From Streptomyces sp. PCS3-D2 (GTDB taxonomy: Bacteria; Actinomycetota; Actinomycetes; Streptomycetales; Streptomycetaceae): a stretch of DNA of 64,000 nucleotides. The translations under genes were made by a program, and so were the position numbers. Under the pieces are notes generated by a model. The model was not told where the DNA came from. It ran no database searches and worked only from the letters and a program-made list of their open reading frames with translations. Location: the NCBI RefSeq assembly GCF_000612545.2, contig NZ_CP097800.1, positions 5,840,501 through 5,904,500 of the forward strand. The letters run 5' to 3'. Positions 55,704-64,000 of the stretch are shown one piece after another (position 1 is the stretch's first letter; each line of letters begins with the position of its first letter).

Positions 55704-56675
55704 TCATTCCCCGGCCGGGGCCACGTCCCGCAGCAGCTGCGTGAAGGCGGCCTCGTCGACCACCGGGGTGCCGAACGACTTCGCCTTGACCGTCTTCGAG
55801 GTCGCCGAGTCGGGGTCGTTCGTCACCAGGAGGCTGGTGAGCCGCGACACGCTCGTCGCGACGTGCAGGCCCGCCTCGACCGTCCGGTCCTCCAGCAGCT
55901 CCCGCTCCACCGAGGTGTCACCGGAGAAGGCGATCCGCATGCCCTGCTTCAGCGGCTTGCCGTCCTCGAACCGCCCCGGGTTGGGGTGCGGGCACGGCGG
56001 CCGCCTGCGCGAGGGCCGCCAGCTGCTTCCCCGGTAGGACGTCTGGTGGCCCACGCGGGGGGTGGCGGCCGAGTCCGACCACTCGGTCAGCGGCCGGCAC
56101 TCCAGCAGGGGCAGCCGTACGCCGCCCCGCGCCGCGGCGTGCAGCGACGGACGGAAGGCCTCCGCCAGCACCCGGGCGTCGTCGAGGGCGTGGTGCGCGC
56201 GCTGCTGGACCACGCCGAAGTGCGCGGCGAGCGACTCCAGCTTGTGGTTGGGCAGCGGGAGGTCCAGCTCCTTCGACAGGGCGATGGTGCACAACCGCTG
56301 ACGGACCGGCGCGGCAGCCTCGGCGCGCGCGTACTCCCGGGCGATCATCTGCCAGTCGAAGATGGCGTTGTGCGCCACCAGCACCCGGTCCGCGAGCCGG
56401 TCGGCGAGCTCCTCGGCGACATCCCGGAAGAGCGGCGCCCCGTCGAGCACGTCGCTCGTCAGACCGTGGATCCACACCGGCCCCGGGTCCCGCTGCGGGT
56501 TGACCAAGGTGTACCAGTGGTCCTCCACGTTGCCCTGGGCGTCGAGCCGGTAGACGGCCGCGGAGACTATCCGGTCGTCGCGAGCGAGCCCGGTGGTCTC
56601 CACGTCGACGACCGCGTACCCCTGTGGGTAGGCGGTCGGCCACGTCGTCTCTGCGGTCGTACGGTCGTCGAGCAT
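55704..56675 (-). CDS. DEDDh exonuclease with C-terminal BRCT domain
   Basis: The 323-residue protein joins a DnaQ-like 3'-5' exonuclease (residues ~20-185: YAVVDVETTGL ExoI with the DE pair, WIHGLTSDVL, VLVAHNAIFDWQMI ExoII, AHHALDDARVLAEAF ExoIII with His and Asp) to a BRCT domain (residues ~235-320: GMRIAFSGDTSVERELLEDRTVEAGLHVATSVSRLTSLLVTND, ATSKTVKAKSFGTPVVDEAAFTQLL). Similar fusions in actinobacteria act in DNA repair or proofreading. The ATG at 56675 precedes the domain closely; no strong ribosome-binding site is seen. Confidence 0.9.
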   Translation of the reverse strand: MLDDRTTAETTWPTAYPQGYAVVDVETTGLARDDRIVSAAVYRLDAQGNVEDHWYTLVNPQRDPGPVWIHGLTSDVLDGAPLFRDVAEELADRLADRVLVAHNAIFDWQMIAREYARAEAAAPVRQRLCTIALSKELDLPLPNHKLESLAAHFGVVQQRAHHALDDARVLAEAFRPSLHAAARGGVRLPLLECRPLTEWSDSAATPRVGHQTSYRGSSWRPSRRRPPCPHPNPGRFEDGKPLKQGMRIAFSGDTSVERELLEDRTVEAGLHVATSVSRLTSLLVTNDPDSATSKTVKAKSFGTPVVDEAAFTQLLRDVAPAGE

Positions 56676-56803
56676 GGTCACAGAGGATATCGGCACGGAC
56701 CGACACCGCAGCCCCACCCTGGGTCAGCCCAGGGCCGAGACCAGGTCCGCGGCGGCCAGCTGTTCGAGCCCGCAGCCGTCAACGGGTCCCGGCGCAAACC
56801 GGC

Positions 56804-57448
56804 TCACGGACCGCTCCTGCGGTCCTGCGGCGGCGCCATCAGCAGGGCGGTCACCAGGGCCCGCACGGACAGCAGGAAGAGCCGCTCCGGATCCGCGGGC
56901 CGGGCCAGCGCGCGGGCCAGGGCGGGGTCGTGGGAGGCCGTGGCCGGGTCCCAGAGCTCGCTCTCGGCCGGGGACTGGGCGGGGGCGCGTTCACGGTTGC
57001 GCTCCACGAGCAGGAACCCGACGATCTGGAACTGCACGGCGCGCACCGCGTCGGCCGCCCGGGCGCCGTGCAGGCCCGCGGCGTGCACCTCGCGGACGAG
57101 GGCCTGCTGGGCGGGCAGGAACATCCGCTCCGTGAGGCCGCGTTCGTGGACCATCGCGATGAGGTGCGGGCGCTCGCGCAGTTCGCGGCGCAGGATCCGG
57201 GCCACCGAGACCATCCGCTCGGCCGGGGTGCGGCCGGCCGGGAGGATTGCGCCCATCTCCTGAACCGTCCGCTCCACGAGGGCGTCGAGCAGCGATTCGC
57301 GGTTGCCGACGTGCCAGTAGATCGACGTCACGGCGGTGCCCAGCTCGGCGGCGAGTCCCCGCATCGTGAGGGCGGCCGGACCGCGTCGTCGAACCAGGGA
57401 CGCGGCGGCGTCGAGCACCTCGTCACGGGTCAGCGAGGATCTTGCCAT
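56804..57448 (-). CDS. TetR-family regulator of the decarboxylase/amidohydrolase cluster
   Basis: The 214-residue protein has an HTH (RDEVLDAAASLVRRRGPAALTMRGLAAELGTAVTSIYWHVGNRESLLDALVER, residues ~8-60) followed by a TetR_C-type ligand domain. A GGGGGA site precedes the ATG at 57448. It is divergent from the acetoacetate-decarboxylase-like gene, with a perfect palindrome at 57520-57534 between them, so it probably represses that cluster until a pathway metabolite binds. Confidence 0.9.
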   Translation of the reverse strand: MARSSLTRDEVLDAAASLVRRRGPAALTMRGLAAELGTAVTSIYWHVGNRESLLDALVERTVQEMGAILPAGRTPAERMVSVARILRRELRERPHLIAMVHERGLTERMFLPAQQALVREVHAAGLHGARAADAVRAVQFQIVGFLLVERNRERAPAQSPAESELWDPATASHDPALARALARPADPERLFLLSVRALVTALLMAPPQDRRSGP

Positions 57449-57519
57449 GGCAGCCGTCCCCCGATCTGTTGCCGCGTCAGTTCTGGTGTGCACGGGTCTT
57501 TACCCTTCATCGGCAGCGG

Positions 57520-57534
57520 TGTAACTGTGTTACA
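57520..57534. promoter_or_regulatory. TetR operator of the decarboxylase cluster
   Basis: TGTAAC-TGT-GTTACA is a perfect 15-bp dyad in the 113-bp divergent gap, 27 bp upstream of the decarboxylase start and AT-richer than its surroundings. Confidence 0.75.
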
Positions 57535-57561
57535 GAACCGAACCGAGAGGTGGTGCGAGAG

Positions 57562-58359
57562 ATGGCACGCGTACGGTACGGAGCGCGCACCGAGGTCGAG
57601 ATCGCCGCGTCGCGCGAGAAGAGTTCCCGGCTCCCCGACATCTGGTCCACCGGCGTGGTGGCCGTCTGGGAGACCGATCCCGACGTGGTCGCCGCGGTCC
57701 TGCCGCCGCCGCTCAAGCCGACCGGACAGGCCCTGGTGCGGGCGAACATCAGCAAGGTCGACCTGCCCGGCTACCCGCTCGGCGCCGGCTCGGTGGCCGT
57801 CGCCGCCCGGCACGACGGCGTGGAGGGCTGGTACCCCCTGGTCATGCCGATGACCCACGAGCGCGCCCTGACCGGCGGCCGCGAGGTCTTCGGCGAACCG
57901 AAGAAGCTGGGCGAGGTCACCGTCGAGCGGGACGGCCTCGTCGTACGCGCAGCCCTCGCCCGGCACGGGATCGCCTTCGTCGAGGTGCGCGGCGCCGTGG
58001 ACCGCCCGCTCCCACTGCCCGAGCCCACCCGGAAGACCGACTTCTACTTCAAGTTCCTTCCTTCCGTGGACGGTTCGGGCTTCGACGGGGACCCGGTCCT
58101 GGTGCACTGCGTGCGCAACGAGAAGGTCCGCAGGCTGGAGCACGTCACCGGTGACGTCGTCCTGCGCGAGTCGATGTTCGATCCGGTCGCCGACCTCCCG
58201 GTCCGCCGGATCGTGGAGATCACCATCGGCGAGAAGACCACCGACCAGAGGGGCCGGGTCGTCGAGCGGGTCAGTGCCCGGTCCCTGCTCCCGTACGTCC
58301 ACCAGCGCTACGACGACCCCCTCCAGCTCCTCGACGGCCCGCCGGAAGGGAGCCTGTGA
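57562..58359 (+). CDS. Acetoacetate decarboxylase-family protein
   Basis: The 265-residue protein has the ADC fold and the Schiff-base Lys region GGREVFGEPKKLGEVTVERDG (near residue 118), corresponding to the paired lysines of clostridial acetoacetate decarboxylase, with YPLVMPMTHERA before it and KTDFYFKFLPSVDGSGFDGDPVLVHC after. Many relatives are not true decarboxylases but act on other keto or enol substrates as hydratases/aldolases. It is the first gene of the TetR-controlled set. ATG with GAGAGAT upstream. Confidence 0.88.
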   Translation: MARVRYGARTEVEIAASREKSSRLPDIWSTGVVAVWETDPDVVAAVLPPPLKPTGQALVRANISKVDLPGYPLGAGSVAVAARHDGVEGWYPLVMPMTHERALTGGREVFGEPKKLGEVTVERDGLVVRAALARHGIAFVEVRGAVDRPLPLPEPTRKTDFYFKFLPSVDGSGFDGDPVLVHCVRNEKVRRLEHVTGDVVLRESMFDPVADLPVRRIVEITIGEKTTDQRGRVVERVSARSLLPYVHQRYDDPLQLLDGPPEGSL

Positions 58360-58360
58360 G

Positions 58361-59246
58361 ATGCGGCTCGAACCGGGACAGACGGCCGTCGTCACCGGCG
58401 CGGCGAGCGGCATCGGCCTCGCCATGGCCCGCCGCTTCGCCGCCGAGGGGCTGCAGGTGGTCCTCGCCGACGTCGAGGAGGGCGCCCTGCGCAAGGCCGC
58501 CGGCGAACTCACCGCGGACGGTGCGCAGGTGCTCGCCCGGGCCGTCGACGTCGGCGACCGCGAGTCCGTGCTCGCCCTTGCCGACGCGGCCTACGACGCC
58601 TTCGGCGCCGTCCACGTCCTGTGCAACAACGCGGGCGTCGGCTCCGGCGCGGAGGGCCGGATGTGGGAACACGAGCCCAACGACTGGAAGTGGGCCTTCT
58701 CCGTCAACGTGTGGGGCGTCTTCCACGGCATCCAGGCCTTCGTCCCCCGCATGATCGCCGGCGGCGCCCCCGGCCACGTCGTCAACACCTCCTCCGGTGA
58801 CGGCGGCATCGCCCCGCTGCCCACCGCCTCCGTGTACGCCGTCACCAAGGCCGCCGTGGTCACCATGACCGAGTCCCTCTACGCGCACCTCAAGGCGGAA
58901 GGCGCGTCGGTCGGCGCCTCCGTGCTCTTCCCCGGCCCGCACATGCTGCGCACCGGACTGTGGGAGTCCCACCGCAACCGGCCCGAGCGGTACGCCAAGC
59001 AGCGCCCGCGCCGGACCCCGTACCGCAGCCTCGACCAGTACGAGGCCGCGATGAAGCAGGCCGGCCGCGAGGTGGACTTCACCCCGGTCGAGGAGGTCGC
59101 GGAGCACGTCGTCGACGGCATCCGCGCCGGCCGCTTCTGGATGCTGTCCGCCGAGCGAGCACAGCGACCGGCAGATCCGCGCTCGGTCGCAGTCGATGCT
59201 CGACCGCGCCGACCCCGCCTACCTGGAGAGCTTCATCCTCGACTGA
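58361..59246 (+). CDS. Short-chain dehydrogenase with an apparent +1 frameshift near its end
   Basis: The classical SDR domain has TGAASGIG (near residue 12), NNAGVG (near 88), Ser in NTSSGDGG and the YAVTK catalytic pair (near 162). Read straight, the frame runs to 59266, overlaps the next gene and ends in a Pro/Arg-rich tail unlike an SDR. Removing one base in 59150-59153 restores a natural ending (SEHSDRQIRARSQS then LDRADPAYLESFILD) with stop at 59244-59246, 12 bp before the next start. A sequencing error or a real recent mutation is likely. The corrected length is 294 residues. Confidence 0.85.
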
Positions 59247-59258
59247 GGAGCGACCGCA

Positions 59259-60551
59259 GTGAGTGACACACCGTACGAGGACCCGTACCTGATCATCTCC
59301 TCCGACTGCCACGCGGGCCTGCCCACCGAGCAGTACCGCCCCTATCTCGACTCCCGTCACCACCGCCGGTTCGACGAGTTCCTCGGCCAGCGCGACGCCC
59401 GCCGCGCCGAGGCCACCCGGCTGGGCATCCGCAACGAGGCCTTCGCCGAGAAGTGGTTCCACGACCACGAGGAAGGGCTGCGGGGCGGCTGGGACACCGG
59501 TCAGCGGCTCAAGGAGCTCGACGGCGACGGCGTGGCCGGTGAGGTCGTCTTCCCCGACGCGGACGCCGTCGACAGCCAGACCGCGGCCCCCTTCGGAGTG
59601 GGCCTCGGGCTCTCCGGCGACCAGGACCCCGAGCTCGGTATGGCGGGCGCGCAGGCGCACAACCGCTGGCTGGCCGAGTTCGTCTCGCAGACCCCGGAAC
59701 GCCATTGCGGTGTCGCCCTGCTGCCCGTCACGGGCGATCCGGACAAGGTCGTCGCCGAGGTGCACCGGGCCAAGGAGTCCGGGCTGGGCGCGCTGATGAT
59801 CCCCGCCATGTGGGTGGACCAGGCGCCCTACCACGACCGCCGCTACGACCCCGTCTGGGCGGCGGCGGCCGAGACGCGGATGCCCATCGTCACCCATTCC
59901 GGGGCCTCGCCGCGCCACGAGTACGGCGACCACCTGGGCATCTTCGTCTCCGAGGTCACCTGGTGGCCGGCCCGCCCGCTCTGGTTCCTGCTCTGGTCGG
60001 GGGTGTTCGAGCGGCACCCGGGCCTGAGGTTCGGCGTCGCCGAGTCGGGCTGCTGGTGGCTGCCGAACCAGCTGTGGTTCATGGACCGGCTCTACCTCGG
60101 CGCGCACGGCGGCAAGAAGCTCTCGCCCTTCGAGGAGCTGAAGCGGCCGCCGAGCGAGTACCTGGACCGCCAGGTGTTCGTCTGCGCGACGAACACCAAG
60201 CGGCGGGAACTGGCCCAGCGCTACGAGATCGGCGTGGACAACATCCTGTGGGGTTCGGACTTCCCGCACCCCGAGGGCACCTGGCCGAACACCCGGACCT
60301 GGCTGAAGAACACCTTCCACGACATCCCCGTCGACGAGAGCCGCCGGATCCTCGGCCTCGCAGCGGCGGAGGTCTTCGGCTTCGACACCGCGAAGCTGGC
60401 CCCGCTCGCCCGCCGGATCGGCCCCACCCCGGCCGAGCTGGGCCAGTCCCCGGACCAGGCGGCGGTGACGGCCTCCTGGGCGCGCTCGCGCGAGGTGGGC
60501 CGGCACTGGCTGACCGGCCACGACTTCCCGGTACTGGGGGTCGCGCAGTGA
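59259..60551 (+). CDS. Amidohydrolase-2 family protein (ACMSD-like), first of a tandem pair
   Basis: The 430-residue protein belongs to the amidohydrolase-2 group that includes ACMSD-type metal-dependent decarboxylases. Visible: IISSDCHAGLP (DxH at the first strand), VTHSGASPRHEYGDHLG, RHPGLRFGVAESGCWWLPN and ILWGSDFPHPEGTWPN (catalytic Asp). The GTG start has GAGGAGCG upstream, and its stop overlaps the next GTG start. The next gene is a paralogue with the same motifs (about 410 residues). Substrate unknown; a carboxylated pathway intermediate is plausible. Confidence 0.9.
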   Translation: MSDTPYEDPYLIISSDCHAGLPTEQYRPYLDSRHHRRFDEFLGQRDARRAEATRLGIRNEAFAEKWFHDHEEGLRGGWDTGQRLKELDGDGVAGEVVFPDADAVDSQTAAPFGVGLGLSGDQDPELGMAGAQAHNRWLAEFVSQTPERHCGVALLPVTGDPDKVVAEVHRAKESGLGALMIPAMWVDQAPYHDRRYDPVWAAAAETRMPIVTHSGASPRHEYGDHLGIFVSEVTWWPARPLWFLLWSGVFERHPGLRFGVAESGCWWLPNQLWFMDRLYLGAHGGKKLSPFEELKRPPSEYLDRQVFVCATNTKRRELAQRYEIGVDNILWGSDFPHPEGTWPNTRTWLKNTFHDIPVDESRRILGLAAAEVFGFDTAKLAPLARRIGPTPAELGQSPDQAAVTASWARSREVGRHWLTGHDFPVLGVAQ

Positions 60552-61771
60552 CCGGCGGCGACCGCTACACGGTGATCTCGGCGGACTGCCACGCGGGCGC
60601 CGACCTCCTGGACTACAAGCCGTACCTGGAGAAGCGCCACCACGACGACTTCGACGCCTGGGCCGCCGGCTACGTGAACCCGTACGAGGACCTCCTCGCG
60701 GACACCGCGGACCGCAACTGGAACTCGGCGCGGCGCCTGGCGGAGCTGGAGGCCGACGGCATCGTCGCCGAGGTCGTCTTCCCCAACACCATCCCGCCGT
60801 TCTTCCCCAAGGCCTCCCTGATGGCGCAGCCGCCGACGGCCGCGGAGTACGCGATGCGCTGGGCCGGCCTGCAGGCCCACAACCGCTGGCTGGCGGACTT
60901 CTGCGCGGACGCCCCGGGCCGGCGGGCGGGCGTCGCGCAGATCCTCCTCAACGACGTGGACGCGGCGGTGCGGGAGGTCCGCCGCACGAAGGAGGCAGGC
61001 CTGACGGGCGGCATCCTGCTGCCCGGCGTACCGCCCGGTTCCACGGTCCCCGAGCTGTACTCGGAGGTCTACGACCCCCTCTGGGCGGTGTGCGACGAGC
61101 TGGACGTCCCGGTCAACCACCACGGCGGCTCGGCCTCGCCGCCGCTCGGCGACGAACCGGCGGCCCGGGCCGTCTTCATGGTGGAGACCACCTGGTTCTC
61201 GCACCGCGCCCTGTGGCACCTCGTCTTCGGCGGGGCGTTTCGACGCCATCCGGGCCTCAGACTGGTCCTGACCGAGCAGGGCTCCGGCTGGATCCCCGGC
61301 GTGCTGGAGATGCTGGACTACTACCACGGCCGCCTGGTCGCGGCCTCGGCCACGGCCGAGTCCAAGTTCGGGGCGGGCCTCGCCGAGGCGATGGGCAGGG
61401 GCCCGAGCGAGGTCTGGCGGGACAACTGCTTCGTGGGGGCCAGCTTCATGCGTCCCCACGAGGTGCCGCTGCGGGACCGGATCGGCCTCGACAAGATCAT
61501 GTGGGGCAGCGACTACCCCCACGACGAGGGCACGACCCCCTTCTCCCGCGAAGGCCTCCGCATCGCCTACGCGGGCCTCCCGCGGGACGAGGTCGCCGCG
61601 ATGGCCGGCGGCAACGCGGCCCGCGTGTACGGCTTCGACCTGACGCGGCTGGACGCCCTGGCCGCGCAGCACGGCCCCCTGGTCTCGGAGATCGCCGAAC
61701 CCCTGGCGCACGTCCCGCCCGAGGCCACCAGCCCGGCCTTCGCCCGCGGCGGCTCGGTCCGGGTCTGGTAG
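60548..61771 (+). CDS. Amidohydrolase-2 family protein, second of a tandem pair
   Basis: The 407-residue paralogue of the preceding protein shows VISADCHAGADLLDYKPYLE, AHNRWLADFCADAPGRRAGVAQI, VNHHGGSASPPLGD, FRRHPGLRLVLTEQGSGWIPG and IMWGSDYPHDEGTTPF. The paired THSG of the first copy is replaced by NHHGG. The GTG overlaps the previous stop (GTGA). Two paralogues in tandem may form a heteromer or act on successive intermediates. A strong terminator follows. Confidence 0.9.
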   Translation: MTGGDRYTVISADCHAGADLLDYKPYLEKRHHDDFDAWAAGYVNPYEDLLADTADRNWNSARRLAELEADGIVAEVVFPNTIPPFFPKASLMAQPPTAAEYAMRWAGLQAHNRWLADFCADAPGRRAGVAQILLNDVDAAVREVRRTKEAGLTGGILLPGVPPGSTVPELYSEVYDPLWAVCDELDVPVNHHGGSASPPLGDEPAARAVFMVETTWFSHRALWHLVFGGAFRRHPGLRLVLTEQGSGWIPGVLEMLDYYHGRLVAASATAESKFGAGLAEAMGRGPSEVWRDNCFVGASFMRPHEVPLRDRIGLDKIMWGSDYPHDEGTTPFSREGLRIAYAGLPRDEVAAMAGGNAARVYGFDLTRLDALAAQHGPLVSEIAEPLAHVPPEATSPAFARGGSVRVW

Positions 61772-61974: not shown

Positions 61975-62934
61975 ATGCCGAACCTGCCCGATGTCGTGCT
62001 GTGGTCCATACCCGCCTTCGTGCTGCTCACCGTCATCGAGCTGGTGAGCTACCGGCTCCATCCCGACGAGGACGCGGCCGGGTACGACACCAAGGACGCC
62101 GCCACCAGCATCGGCATGGGGCTCGGCAGCATCGGCTTCGACCTCCTGTGGAAGATCCCGGTGGTCGCGGTCTTCACCGCCGTCTACGAACTCACCCCGC
62201 TGCGGGTTCCGTTGCTCTGGTGGACCGTCCCGCTGATGCTGCTCGCCCAGGACTTCCTCTACTACTGGCAGCACCGCAGCCACCACGTCATCCGCATCCT
62301 GTGGGCCTGCCACGTGGTCCACCACAGCAGCCGGAAGTTCAACCTCACCACCGCGCTGCGGCAGCCCTGGACCAGTGCCACGACCTACTGGTTCTACCTG
62401 CCGATGGTGGCGGTCGGGGTGCACCCCGCCGTGATCCCGTTCTGCTACGGCATCAACCTGCTCTACCAGTTCTGGGTCCACACCGAGCGCATCGGGAAGC
62501 TGCCCCGGGCCTACGAGTACGTCTTCAACACCCCGTCGCACCACCGCGTCCACCACGCGTCCCAGGGCGGCTACCTGGACCGCAACTACGGCGGCATCCT
62601 GATCGTCTGGGACCGGATGTTCGGCTCCTGGGTGGGGGAGACCGACCGGCCCGTATACGGGCTCACCAAGAACATCGACACCTACAACCCGCTGCGCGTG
62701 GCCACTCACGAGTACGCCGCCATCGCCCGGGACGTGCGCGCCGCCCGGAGCTGGAGCGAGCGGGCCGGCCGGGTCTTCCGCGGCCCCGGCTGGCAGCCCG
62801 CGGCATCGGTCCAGGCGGCCCCGGCCGCCCAGGCCGCCGCACCCGCGGCGCAGGCCGCCGTGGCCGCGCCCGCTGCCCCCACCGCACCCGCCCCCACCAC
62901 CGACCCGGCCGCCGTACAGGAGGCCACCGCGTGA
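61975..62934 (+). CDS. Alkylglycerol monooxygenase-like membrane hydroxylase (fatty acid hydroxylase superfamily)
   Basis: The 319-residue integral membrane di-iron protein has the eight-His array: YYWQHRSHH (near residue 96), HVVHHSSRKFN, FWVHTERIG and NTPSHHRVHHASQGG. Beyond the generic motifs, NLTTALRQ, NLLYQFWVHTE, DRNYGGILIVWDRMFG and VYGLTKNIDTYNP closely resemble animal AGMO (TMEM195), which cleaves alkylglycerol ethers. A ~55-residue Ala/Pro-rich tail follows. The ATG with a GCGGAC leader starts a two-gene operon with a YhhN protein. Ether-lipid cleavage is inferred; the electron donor is unknown. Confidence 0.88.
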   Translation: MPNLPDVVLWSIPAFVLLTVIELVSYRLHPDEDAAGYDTKDAATSIGMGLGSIGFDLLWKIPVVAVFTAVYELTPLRVPLLWWTVPLMLLAQDFLYYWQHRSHHVIRILWACHVVHHSSRKFNLTTALRQPWTSATTYWFYLPMVAVGVHPAVIPFCYGINLLYQFWVHTERIGKLPRAYEYVFNTPSHHRVHHASQGGYLDRNYGGILIVWDRMFGSWVGETDRPVYGLTKNIDTYNPLRVATHEYAAIARDVRAARSWSERAGRVFRGPGWQPAASVQAAPAAQAAAPAAQAAVAAPAAPTAPAPTTDPAAVQEATA

Positions 62935-63617
62935 GCACCGCTGAGTCCACCGGCCGCCCCGGCCCCTCCTGGGCCGCCGAGCGGGCGGTGCCCGGCAGGG
63001 AGCGGCTCGGCCGCGCCGCCCTCGTGTGCCTGGCCGTGGCCGCCGCCGCCGACCTCGGGGCGCTGCTCGCCGACTGGCACCTCGGGCACGTCATCGCCAA
63101 GCCGCTCCTGATGCCGCTGCTGGTGGTCCACGTGATCACGCGCGGCGCGCCCCGCCTGTTGGCCGCCGCCCTGCTCTTCGGCTGGGGCGGGGACCTGGCC
63201 CTGCTCTTCGACGCCGAGGCGGCCTTCCTGGTCGGCATGGGATCCTTCGCCGTCGGGCACGTCTGCTACCTCGTCCTGTTCGGCAAGCGGCCCGCGAACC
63301 CCCTGCTGGGGGGCGCCTACGCGCTGGCCCTGCTGGGCACCGTCGCCCTGCTGTGGCCCGACCTGCCCGCTGACCTGCGCATCCCCGTGGCCGGCTACAG
63401 CCTGCTGCTGACCGCCATGGCCTTCCGCTCCAGCGCCCTCGGCCTACGGGCCGGCATCGGCGGCGCGCTGTTCCTGCTGTCCGACACCCTCATCGCCACC
63501 GGTGTCGCCGAGTGGCCCCAGCTGCCCCGCCCCGACTTCTGGATCATGGCCACCTATCTGGCCGCCCAGTACCTGCTGGCCACCGGAGCGACCATGCGCG
63601 AAGCAGGCGTACGGTAG
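62931..63617 (+). CDS. YhhN/TMEM86-family lysoplasmalogenase-like protein
   Basis: The 228-residue membrane protein with about eight helices has the YhhN signature: LFGWGGDLALLF (conserved Asp near residue 85), FLVGMGSFAVGHVCYLVLFGKRP and LFLLSDTLIA (second conserved Asp near 188). TMEM86B of this family hydrolyses the vinyl-ether bond of lysoplasmalogens. The GTG overlaps the stop of the AGMO-like gene, so both proteins are made together and probably share a substrate class. Confidence 0.88.
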   Translation: MSTAESTGRPGPSWAAERAVPGRERLGRAALVCLAVAAAADLGALLADWHLGHVIAKPLLMPLLVVHVITRGAPRLLAAALLFGWGGDLALLFDAEAAFLVGMGSFAVGHVCYLVLFGKRPANPLLGGAYALALLGTVALLWPDLPADLRIPVAGYSLLLTAMAFRSSALGLRAGIGGALFLLSDTLIATGVAEWPQLPRPDFWIMATYLAAQYLLATGATMREAGVR

Positions 63618-63673
63618 GACGGTTCCACAGTCGTACAAGACTGAACGATCTCGAACCGGAGGACTGCACCACC

Positions 63674-64000
63674 ATGCGCGCCACCGTCATCCACGCCCCG
63701 CACGACATCCGCGTGGAGGAGGTGCCCGACGCTGCGATCCAGCGCCCCGAGGACGCCGTCGTCCGCGTCCTGCGTGCCTGCATCTGCGGCAGCGACCTGT
63801 GGGCCTACCGGGGCGAGGCCGCGCGCCGGCCCGGCCAGCGCATCGGCCACGAGTTCCTGGGCGTCGTGGAGGAGACCGGCCCGGCGGTGTCGGGCCTGCG
63901 CGCCGGCGACCTGGTCGTCGCGCCCTTCATGTGGTCGGACGGTACCTGCGAGTACTGCAAGGAGGGCCTCTACACCTCCTGCGACCACGGCGGGTTCTGG
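63674..64000 (+). CDS. Zinc-dependent alcohol dehydrogenase, N-terminal part (cut by window edge)
   Basis: The first 109 residues are visible: MRATVIHAPHDIRVEEVP start, catalytic zinc ligands Cys in RACICGSDLWAY and GHEFLGVVEETG (His-Glu), and the structural-zinc Cys set CEYCKEGLYTSC. This is the medium-chain dehydrogenase family. It starts 56 bp after the YhhN gene on the same strand and could oxidise or reduce an aldehyde released by the ether-lipid enzymes, but has space for its own promoter. Confidence 0.9.
   Translation, partial: MRATVIHAPHDIRVEEVPDAAIQRPEDAVVRVLRACICGSDLWAYRGEAARRPGQRIGHEFLGVVEETGPAVSGLRAGDLVVAPFMWSDGTCEYCKEGLYTSCDHGGFW

Follow-up and report, generated by a model that had tools for sequence, protein, structure and literature searches.

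Alkylglycerol monooxygenase (AGMO, also named TMEM195) is the enzyme EC 1.14.16.5. A review describes the human protein as having nine membrane helices, of which helices 6-9 occupy residues 334-433, and 15 essential residues, i.e. nine histidines together with Q162, D233, N235, Y236, W243 and D244; it calls AGMO the only known alkylglycerol-degrading enzyme and states that its purification could not be reproduced (PMC7911779). In the YhhN/TMEM86 family, mammalian and Mycobacterium tuberculosis proteins are described as lysoplasmalogenases (PMC11994398, PMC9052158). Eight active-site residues have been proposed for TMEM86A (K43, G81, D82, H104, G182, S189, D190 and Y213), and the mutants of TMEM86A and TMEM86B are reported to have less than 10% activity, except those at H104 and G182 of TMEM86A or H108 and S182 of TMEM86B (PMC11994398). 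Here we analyze a 64,000-nucleotide stretch of the chromosome of Streptomyces sp. PCS3-D2 (referred to as the window), near the 3′-end of which a gene encoding an AGMO-like membrane hydroxylase overlaps a gene encoding a YhhN/TMEM86-family putative lysoplasmalogenase.

The hydroxylase gene (positions 61975-62934, plus strand) encodes a protein of 319 aa, whose sole Pfam domain is FA_hydroxylase (100.6 bits, cut-off 31). The YhhN gene (62931-63617, plus strand) starts with GTG and encodes a protein of 228 aa, which matches the Pfam family YhhN with 125.9 bits (cut-off 25.6). A search of the whole host genome (7.6 Mb, 3 contigs, completeness 100) located PF04116 and PF07947 at a single place each, namely the window hydroxylase and the window YhhN gene, respectively. 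An earlier reading of this DNA from its letters and open reading frames (the sequence-only reading) had pointed to AGMO-specific blocks in the hydroxylase and to an overlap between its stop codon and the YhhN start codon. Both were confirmed: the blocks are present in the 319-aa open reading frame, and the overlap is the tetranucleotide GTGA (62931-62934, plus strand), in which the GTG of YhhN (62931-62933) lies over the TGA of the hydroxylase (62932-62934). An AGGAGG hexamer resembling a ribosome-binding site (62918-62923, plus strand) is located within the hydroxylase frame, 7 bases 5′ of the GTG codon. This arrangement suggests that translation of the two genes is coupled.

The conservation of the pair was analyzed in 61 genomes of the genus, in which the hydroxylase was counted at E <1e-70 and two genomes with weak matches were scored as lacking it. 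Both genes were found in 41 genomes, the hydroxylase alone in 6, YhhN alone in 1 and neither in 13 (totals of 47 for the hydroxylase and 42 for YhhN; Fisher p 5e-8, kinship ignored). The sole genome carrying YhhN without an AGMO-like hydroxylase is G363 (locus L171). YhhN is a single-copy gene in every genome that has it (81 of 121 genomes). In 37 of the 41 genomes with both genes, YhhN is placed directly downstream of the hydroxylase on the same strand, which makes chance adjacency untenable. As for the four others, the genes lie near contig ends in G362, the YhhN gene of G008 is a fragment at a contig edge, and the two genes are apart in G003 and G012; in the last of these, YhhN still adjoins an alcohol dehydrogenase gene.

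YhhN was also found immediately downstream of the hydroxylase in 48 of the 147 fetched loci containing the latter. After removal of four refetches, 44 distinct pairs remained, with no near-copies among them, and these take in Kitasatospora, Streptacidiphilus and two Micromonospora. A 4-base RTGA overlap is present in 42 of the 44 pairs, the remaining two having a one-base gap, and it persists despite the variable length of the hydroxylase tail. The coupling is much stronger than the sequence-only reading could know. Two of the 44 YhhN partners are doubtful: that of L021 is a 24-bit remnant (its genome, G022, was counted as hydroxylase-only) and that of L146 is interrupted. One genome with a pair (G358) also carries a second AGMO-like gene (G358:C12, L169), which is 42% identical and lies in a 9-kb stretch where YhhN gave no match.

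In order to compare the window hydroxylase with AGMO, the published positions of the human residues were slid along the protein. All 15 were matched (H100, H104, H113, H116, H117, Q130, H169, H190, H193, H194, D202, N204, Y205, W212 and D213), in a register that is kept but for one 1-residue shift: the offset to human AGMO is −32 for the first seven residues (to H201) and −31 for the other eight (from H221). The nine catalytic histidines are non-discriminating, because all of them are also kept in each of the 11 other FA_hydroxylases of related genomes included in the comparison. The residue that separates the AGMO-like group from these hydroxylases is Q162 of the human enzyme: of the AGMO-like rows, 136 of 137 have a glutamine at its position, vs 0 of the 11 others. 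This separation is partly circular, since 80 of the 137 rows (the best 80 among the matches listed) were obtained in a scan with two patterns, one of which contains that glutamine; the other 57 rows came from protein searches, and one place is represented twice (L034 and L055).

A provisional human AGMO core, not taken from a sequence record and agreeing in its letters with all 15 published positions, was used for further comparison. The window hydroxylase shares 43% identity with this provisional core across 177 aa; values of 46-52% were obtained for the best of the other AGMO-like rows from bacteria, and the 11 other hydroxylases show 24-39% over 104-156 aa. The latter, actinobacterial proteins without an assigned function, are the reference set against which the AGMO-like grouping was assessed, in place of sterol desaturases or carotenoid hydroxylases. 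In a 38-row tree, the AGMO-like rows and the provisional human core share one side of a branch with support of 95/93.9, and in a 68-row tree the core is again on the AGMO-like side of the branch (Shimodaira-Hasegawa-like approximate likelihood ratio test, 95). Placement of the core, which forms a long branch, with nine other hydroxylases and outside the bacterial rows was not rejected by the approximately unbiased test (p 0.574). Judged by the residue tests, the assignment of the window hydroxylase to the AGMO-like family holds. Its identification with a plasmalogen desaturase of the CarF/TMEM189 type was dropped, as FA_hydroxylase is the only domain and Lipid_desat (PF10520) is missing.

In a draw of 296 genomes of Actinomycetota, 29 matched the hydroxylase at E <=1e-3, not all of these matches being AGMO-like. 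Neither the hydroxylase nor the YhhN protein gave a credible match among solved structures, searched with the single sequence or with a profile.

The eight residues proposed for the TMEM86A active site have counterparts in the window YhhN protein (K57, G87, D88, H110, G177, S184, D185 and Y209, assigned by order and motif). The spacings D-H (22) and G-S-D (7,1) equal those of TMEM86A, and the other residues were placed by eye. Six of the eight (K57, D88, G177, S184, D185 and Y209) are invariant in the 19 aligned YhhN sequences, that of the window included. The H110 position varies in two Micromonospora and in locus L028; its counterpart histidine in TMEM86A/B is reported to be dispensable (PMC11994398). 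By these tests, the partner can be classed as a YhhN protein of the lysoplasmalogenase type.

These observations suggest, short of proof, that the overlapping AGMO-like/YhhN pair of Streptomyces and some relatives is a unit for ether-lipid breakdown. We propose, with a probability of about 0.5, that it constitutes a translationally coupled operon which opens ether lysolipids of both the alkyl and the alkenyl kind, with release of fatty aldehydes. The hydroxylase, presumably a di-iron, O2-dependent membrane enzyme, would introduce a hydroxyl group at carbon 1 of a 1-O-alkyl glycerol or lyso-alkyl-glycerophospholipid, and the resulting hemiacetal would collapse, releasing a fatty aldehyde along with a glycerol derivative, in the manner of animal AGMO. 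Lysoplasmalogens (1-O-alkenyl lysolipids) would be hydrolyzed at their vinyl-ether bond by the YhhN protein, yielding the same kind of aldehyde, which a zinc-dependent dehydrogenase, where present and whole, might then oxidize or reduce.

The likely role of such an operon would be to scavenge or detoxify ether lysolipids that stem from other organisms, and less so to turn over the cell's own plasmalogens. PEDS1/CarF (PF10520) was found in none of the 61 genomes of the genus, other ether-lipid routes not having been searched for. The same search was positive in 2 of 37 other genomes (one of the Myxococcales and one deltaproteobacterial), which indicates that it is able to detect this family; there is thus no sign that the 61 strains make plasmalogens of their own by that route. 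A foreign substrate is the more likely one, we infer, compared with a home-made one. A lysoplasmalogen-specific phospholipase D and phospholipases acting on plasmalogens are described from actinomycetes (PMC5095149).

Several observations weigh against the proposed breakdown of ether lipids. The first group concerns the enzymes themselves. No counterpart of AGMO helices 6-9 was seen in the window hydroxylase, as judged by alignment position and tail composition: they would begin near residue 303 of 319, the protein stops near human position 350, and its tail is Ala/Pro-rich after residue 275 (A or P at 30 of the final 44 residues). The position of human Y236 is occupied by Y in 49 of the 137 AGMO-like rows and otherwise by H or F, so that this tyrosine is not a general feature of the bacterial group. 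In the YhhN protein of L028, the residue corresponding to G87 is changed. Moreover, the one AGMO-like enzyme of bacterial origin met in the literature consulted whose reaction has been assayed, PRUB680 of Pseudoalteromonas rubra, is reported to act on prodigiosin and not on ether lipids (PMC6667630, PMC7484904; this prodigiosin cyclase work is also cited in PMC12680612 and PMC8960859). It is chiefly because of PRUB680 that we do not claim the AGMO substrate for the window hydroxylase.

The second group concerns the supply of cofactor and ether lipids. The PTPS family of biopterin synthesis (PF01242) has no match in the window genome; it is missing from 18 of the 37 genomes with an adjacent pair and from 22 of the 61 overall. 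It is, if anything, rarer alongside the hydroxylase (26 of 47 genomes with the gene vs 13 of 14 without), and the idea that biopterin supply tracks the hydroxylase was rejected on this ground. Pterin-4a-carbinolamine dehydratase is present in 59 of the 61 genomes, including that of the window, and being near-universal says little on the cofactor. The lack of PEDS1/CarF in the 61 genomes, given above, belongs here too.

The third group concerns the linkage of the genes. The co-occurrence statistic is blind to kinship, six genomes of the genus carry the hydroxylase without YhhN, and in Micromonospora deserti (L131) YhhN is missing, though this locus is the nearest tree neighbour of the paired subclade to which the window belongs. 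Across phyla, YhhN lies near the hydroxylase in 16 of the best 80 loci among the matches listed, all 16 being actinobacterial, and 64 are without it, some with short flanks. Among these listed matches YhhN was not seen beside AGMO-like loci of Bacteroidota, Myxococcota, Proteobacteria or Acidimicrobiia, where again some flanks are short; the YhhN profile used for neighbours was built from Streptomyces sequences, and remote YhhN proteins of other phyla may escape it. Bacterial AGMO-like genes at large do not share the coupling with YhhN. Finally, the dehydrogenase gene of the window strain is split by a prophage, as described below.

The sequence-only reading had claimed an AGMO-like hydroxylase within an ether-lipid degradation operon, with a dehydrogenase for the released aldehyde. 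The first claim is borne out by the essential residues, by the identity to the provisional core and by the trees against the 11 actinobacterial hydroxylases, and does not extend to the C-terminal helices of AGMO. As regards the operon, the conserved overlapping pair speaks for it, and the genome content (no PTPS in the window genome, no PEDS1/CarF in any of the 61) speaks against it. The dehydrogenase is indeed the third gene in many pairs, while that of the window strain is broken.

A more specific form of the proposal, which we put forward only tentatively, is that streptomycetes and Micromonosporas possess a dedicated operon for both alkyl- and alkenyl-ether lysolipids, made up of a TMEM86-type hydrolase and an AGMO-type oxygenase whose electron donor is not PTPS-derived biopterin, and that in many streptomycetes the aldehydes are handed on to a dehydrogenase encoded next to the pair.

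Streptomycetes are abundant in hydrophobic metabolites, and the hydroxylase could be AGMO-like in fold only, oxidizing another hydrophobic substrate (an isoprenoid, a pigment or a secondary metabolite), while the YhhN protein handles either a toxic lysolipid or a product resembling an aldehyde or a vinyl ether. The missing PTPS match of the window genome fits this explanation, as does PRUB680, which is described as cyclizing prodigiosin via C-H activation (PMC6667630, PMC7484904). We nevertheless consider it rather unlikely: the pair lies amid ordinary chromosomal genes (in several Streptomyces an RNase_T/BRCT exonuclease on one side and a subtilase on the other), no biosynthetic cluster was apparent by eye in the loci inspected, and a pigment as substrate would hardly explain a lysoplasmalogenase-family partner with an intact active site.

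The pair might instead serve the cell's own membrane, the hydroxylase modifying ordinary lipids, as OlsE does with ornithine lipid, and YhhN clearing toxic lysolipids. The genus-wide spread of both genes (47 and 42 of 61) and the single-copy state of YhhN would suit a housekeeping membrane function, and the YhhN protein of M. tuberculosis is reported to have shielded spheroplasts of M. smegmatis from lysolipid (PMC9052158). However, the window hydroxylase scores 37.5 bits with the OlsE model (NF052566; cut-off 475), the lowest value among 8 proteins scored (scores of 66-108 bits were obtained for four other actinobacterial hydroxylases, and of 52-69 bits for three other AGMO-like proteins), and its identification with OlsE was dropped on this basis. 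In addition, 13 of the 61 genomes carry neither gene, which shows that the pair is dispensable. A role in the strain's own membrane is accordingly improbable.

It is very improbable that the two membrane-protein genes are merely co-transcribed within an old syntenic block and share no function. Overlapping start and stop codons are common in Streptomyces operons, synteny can last among relatives, and relatives are what the co-occurrence count does not correct for. This explanation is at odds with the joint presence and absence of the genes (41/6/1/13), with the retention of both in G012 though they are apart there, and with the occurrence of pairs in Micromonospora and in separate parts of the hydroxylase tree, where the 15 paired loci included are divided between two subclades.

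Least probable of all is a two-step pathway in which the hydroxylase acts as a desaturase converting an alkyl ether into a vinyl ether, subsequently hydrolyzed by YhhN: this would account for the encoding of both as one unit, and the wider hydroxylase superfamily includes desaturases, but direct hydroxylation is simpler given that all AGMO-essential residues, Q162 too, are kept, and 6 of the 47 genomes with the hydroxylase have no YhhN.

The third gene of the run encodes a zinc-dependent alcohol dehydrogenase, of which the window contains the 5′ part (63674-64000, plus strand, ATG at 63674, continuing past the window). A whole copy from a relative contains the domains ADH_N and ADH_zinc_N. A zinc alcohol dehydrogenase gene is next after YhhN in 21 of the 44 distinct pairs, the split copy of the window counted, and four close relatives have an undivided copy (347 aa) in the same place. 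In the window strain, the first approx. 251 codons (L002:3674-4426, i.e. from window position 63674 on), after which the match to a relative's gene ends, are separated from the last approx. 101 codons (L158:9834-10136), which lie approx. 39.4 kb further. Phage genes in the intervening prophage include an endolysin gene and a tail-fibre-like gene, and the far piece is abutted by a gene for a large serine integrase. Comparison of the two prophage ends revealed no attachment-site repeat of more than 6 bases.

On the other side of the pair, a block of genes (window positions 56804-61771) comprises a TetR gene divergent from an ADC-like (acetoacetate decarboxylase) gene, a short-chain dehydrogenase/reductase gene and two Amidohydro_2 genes. 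It sits between the RNase_T/BRCT exonuclease gene (55704-56717) and the hydroxylase, with a 203-base gap to the latter. The inclusion of these five genes in the operon was considered and dropped, in view of this gap and of the limited recurrence of the block: it is present in near relatives, and part of it in 5 of the 19 other pairs checked. In the other 14 loci the block is missing from the 5′ flank (some flanks being short), and other genes are found there where inspected. Two Streptomyces loci carry a VIT1-family gene 5′ of the hydroxylase (L141:4842-5564 and L148:4300-5013).

Of 167 loci searched, 16 have a gene for a GntR-type regulator in the neighbourhood of the AGMO-like gene (L028, L030, L031, L170, L024-L026, L033, L102, L103, L117, L132, L133, L140, L050 and L151). 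These loci belong to other actinobacterial lineages and show differing orientations; those of the window type are without such a gene. GntR and FCD domains were found in all five regulators scanned, and a neighbour of this type would fit an inducible catabolic gene.

A literature search on bacterial AGMO, YhhN/lysoplasmalogenase and Streptomyces plasmalogens gave no report, in the titles and abstract starts of the matches listed, that treats the pair as one bacterial unit. The conserved pair links two enzyme families. A small bacterial AGMO relative paired with a lysoplasmalogenase-family protein could offer an experimental handle on the oxygenation of ether bonds. If the proposed function is correct, aerobic ether-lipid breakdown would extend to common soil bacteria, and the question would be raised of what replaces tetrahydrobiopterin in them.

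Compared with known systems, the window pair shows the following likenesses and differences. OlsE belongs to the same hydroxylase superfamily, and is set apart by the scores with its model given above. PRUB680, compared by description only, resembles the window hydroxylase in being described as an AGMO-like bacterial oxidase; it differs in its substrate, prodigiosin, and no YhhN partner is mentioned in the descriptions consulted (PMC6667630, PMC7484904).

With the lysoplasmalogenases of the YhhN/TMEM86 family (TMEM86A/B and the YhhN proteins of Legionella and M. tuberculosis), the window YhhN protein shares a Pfam match above the cut-off and the eight proposed active-site residues; unlike them, it is encoded together with an AGMO-like gene, and H110 is not kept in all partners of this kind. 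The hydroxylase is like animal AGMO in its nine catalytic histidines, in the six further essential residues and in its identity to the provisional human core. It is unlike AGMO in its length of 319 aa, its Ala/Pro-rich tail with no counterpart of helices 6-9, the lack of a PTPS match in its genome and the overlap of its gene with that of YhhN. The parts are members of known families, and what is new is that they are coupled, in a conserved manner, as a single overlapping unit, and this in genomes many of which lack the usual biopterin enzyme.

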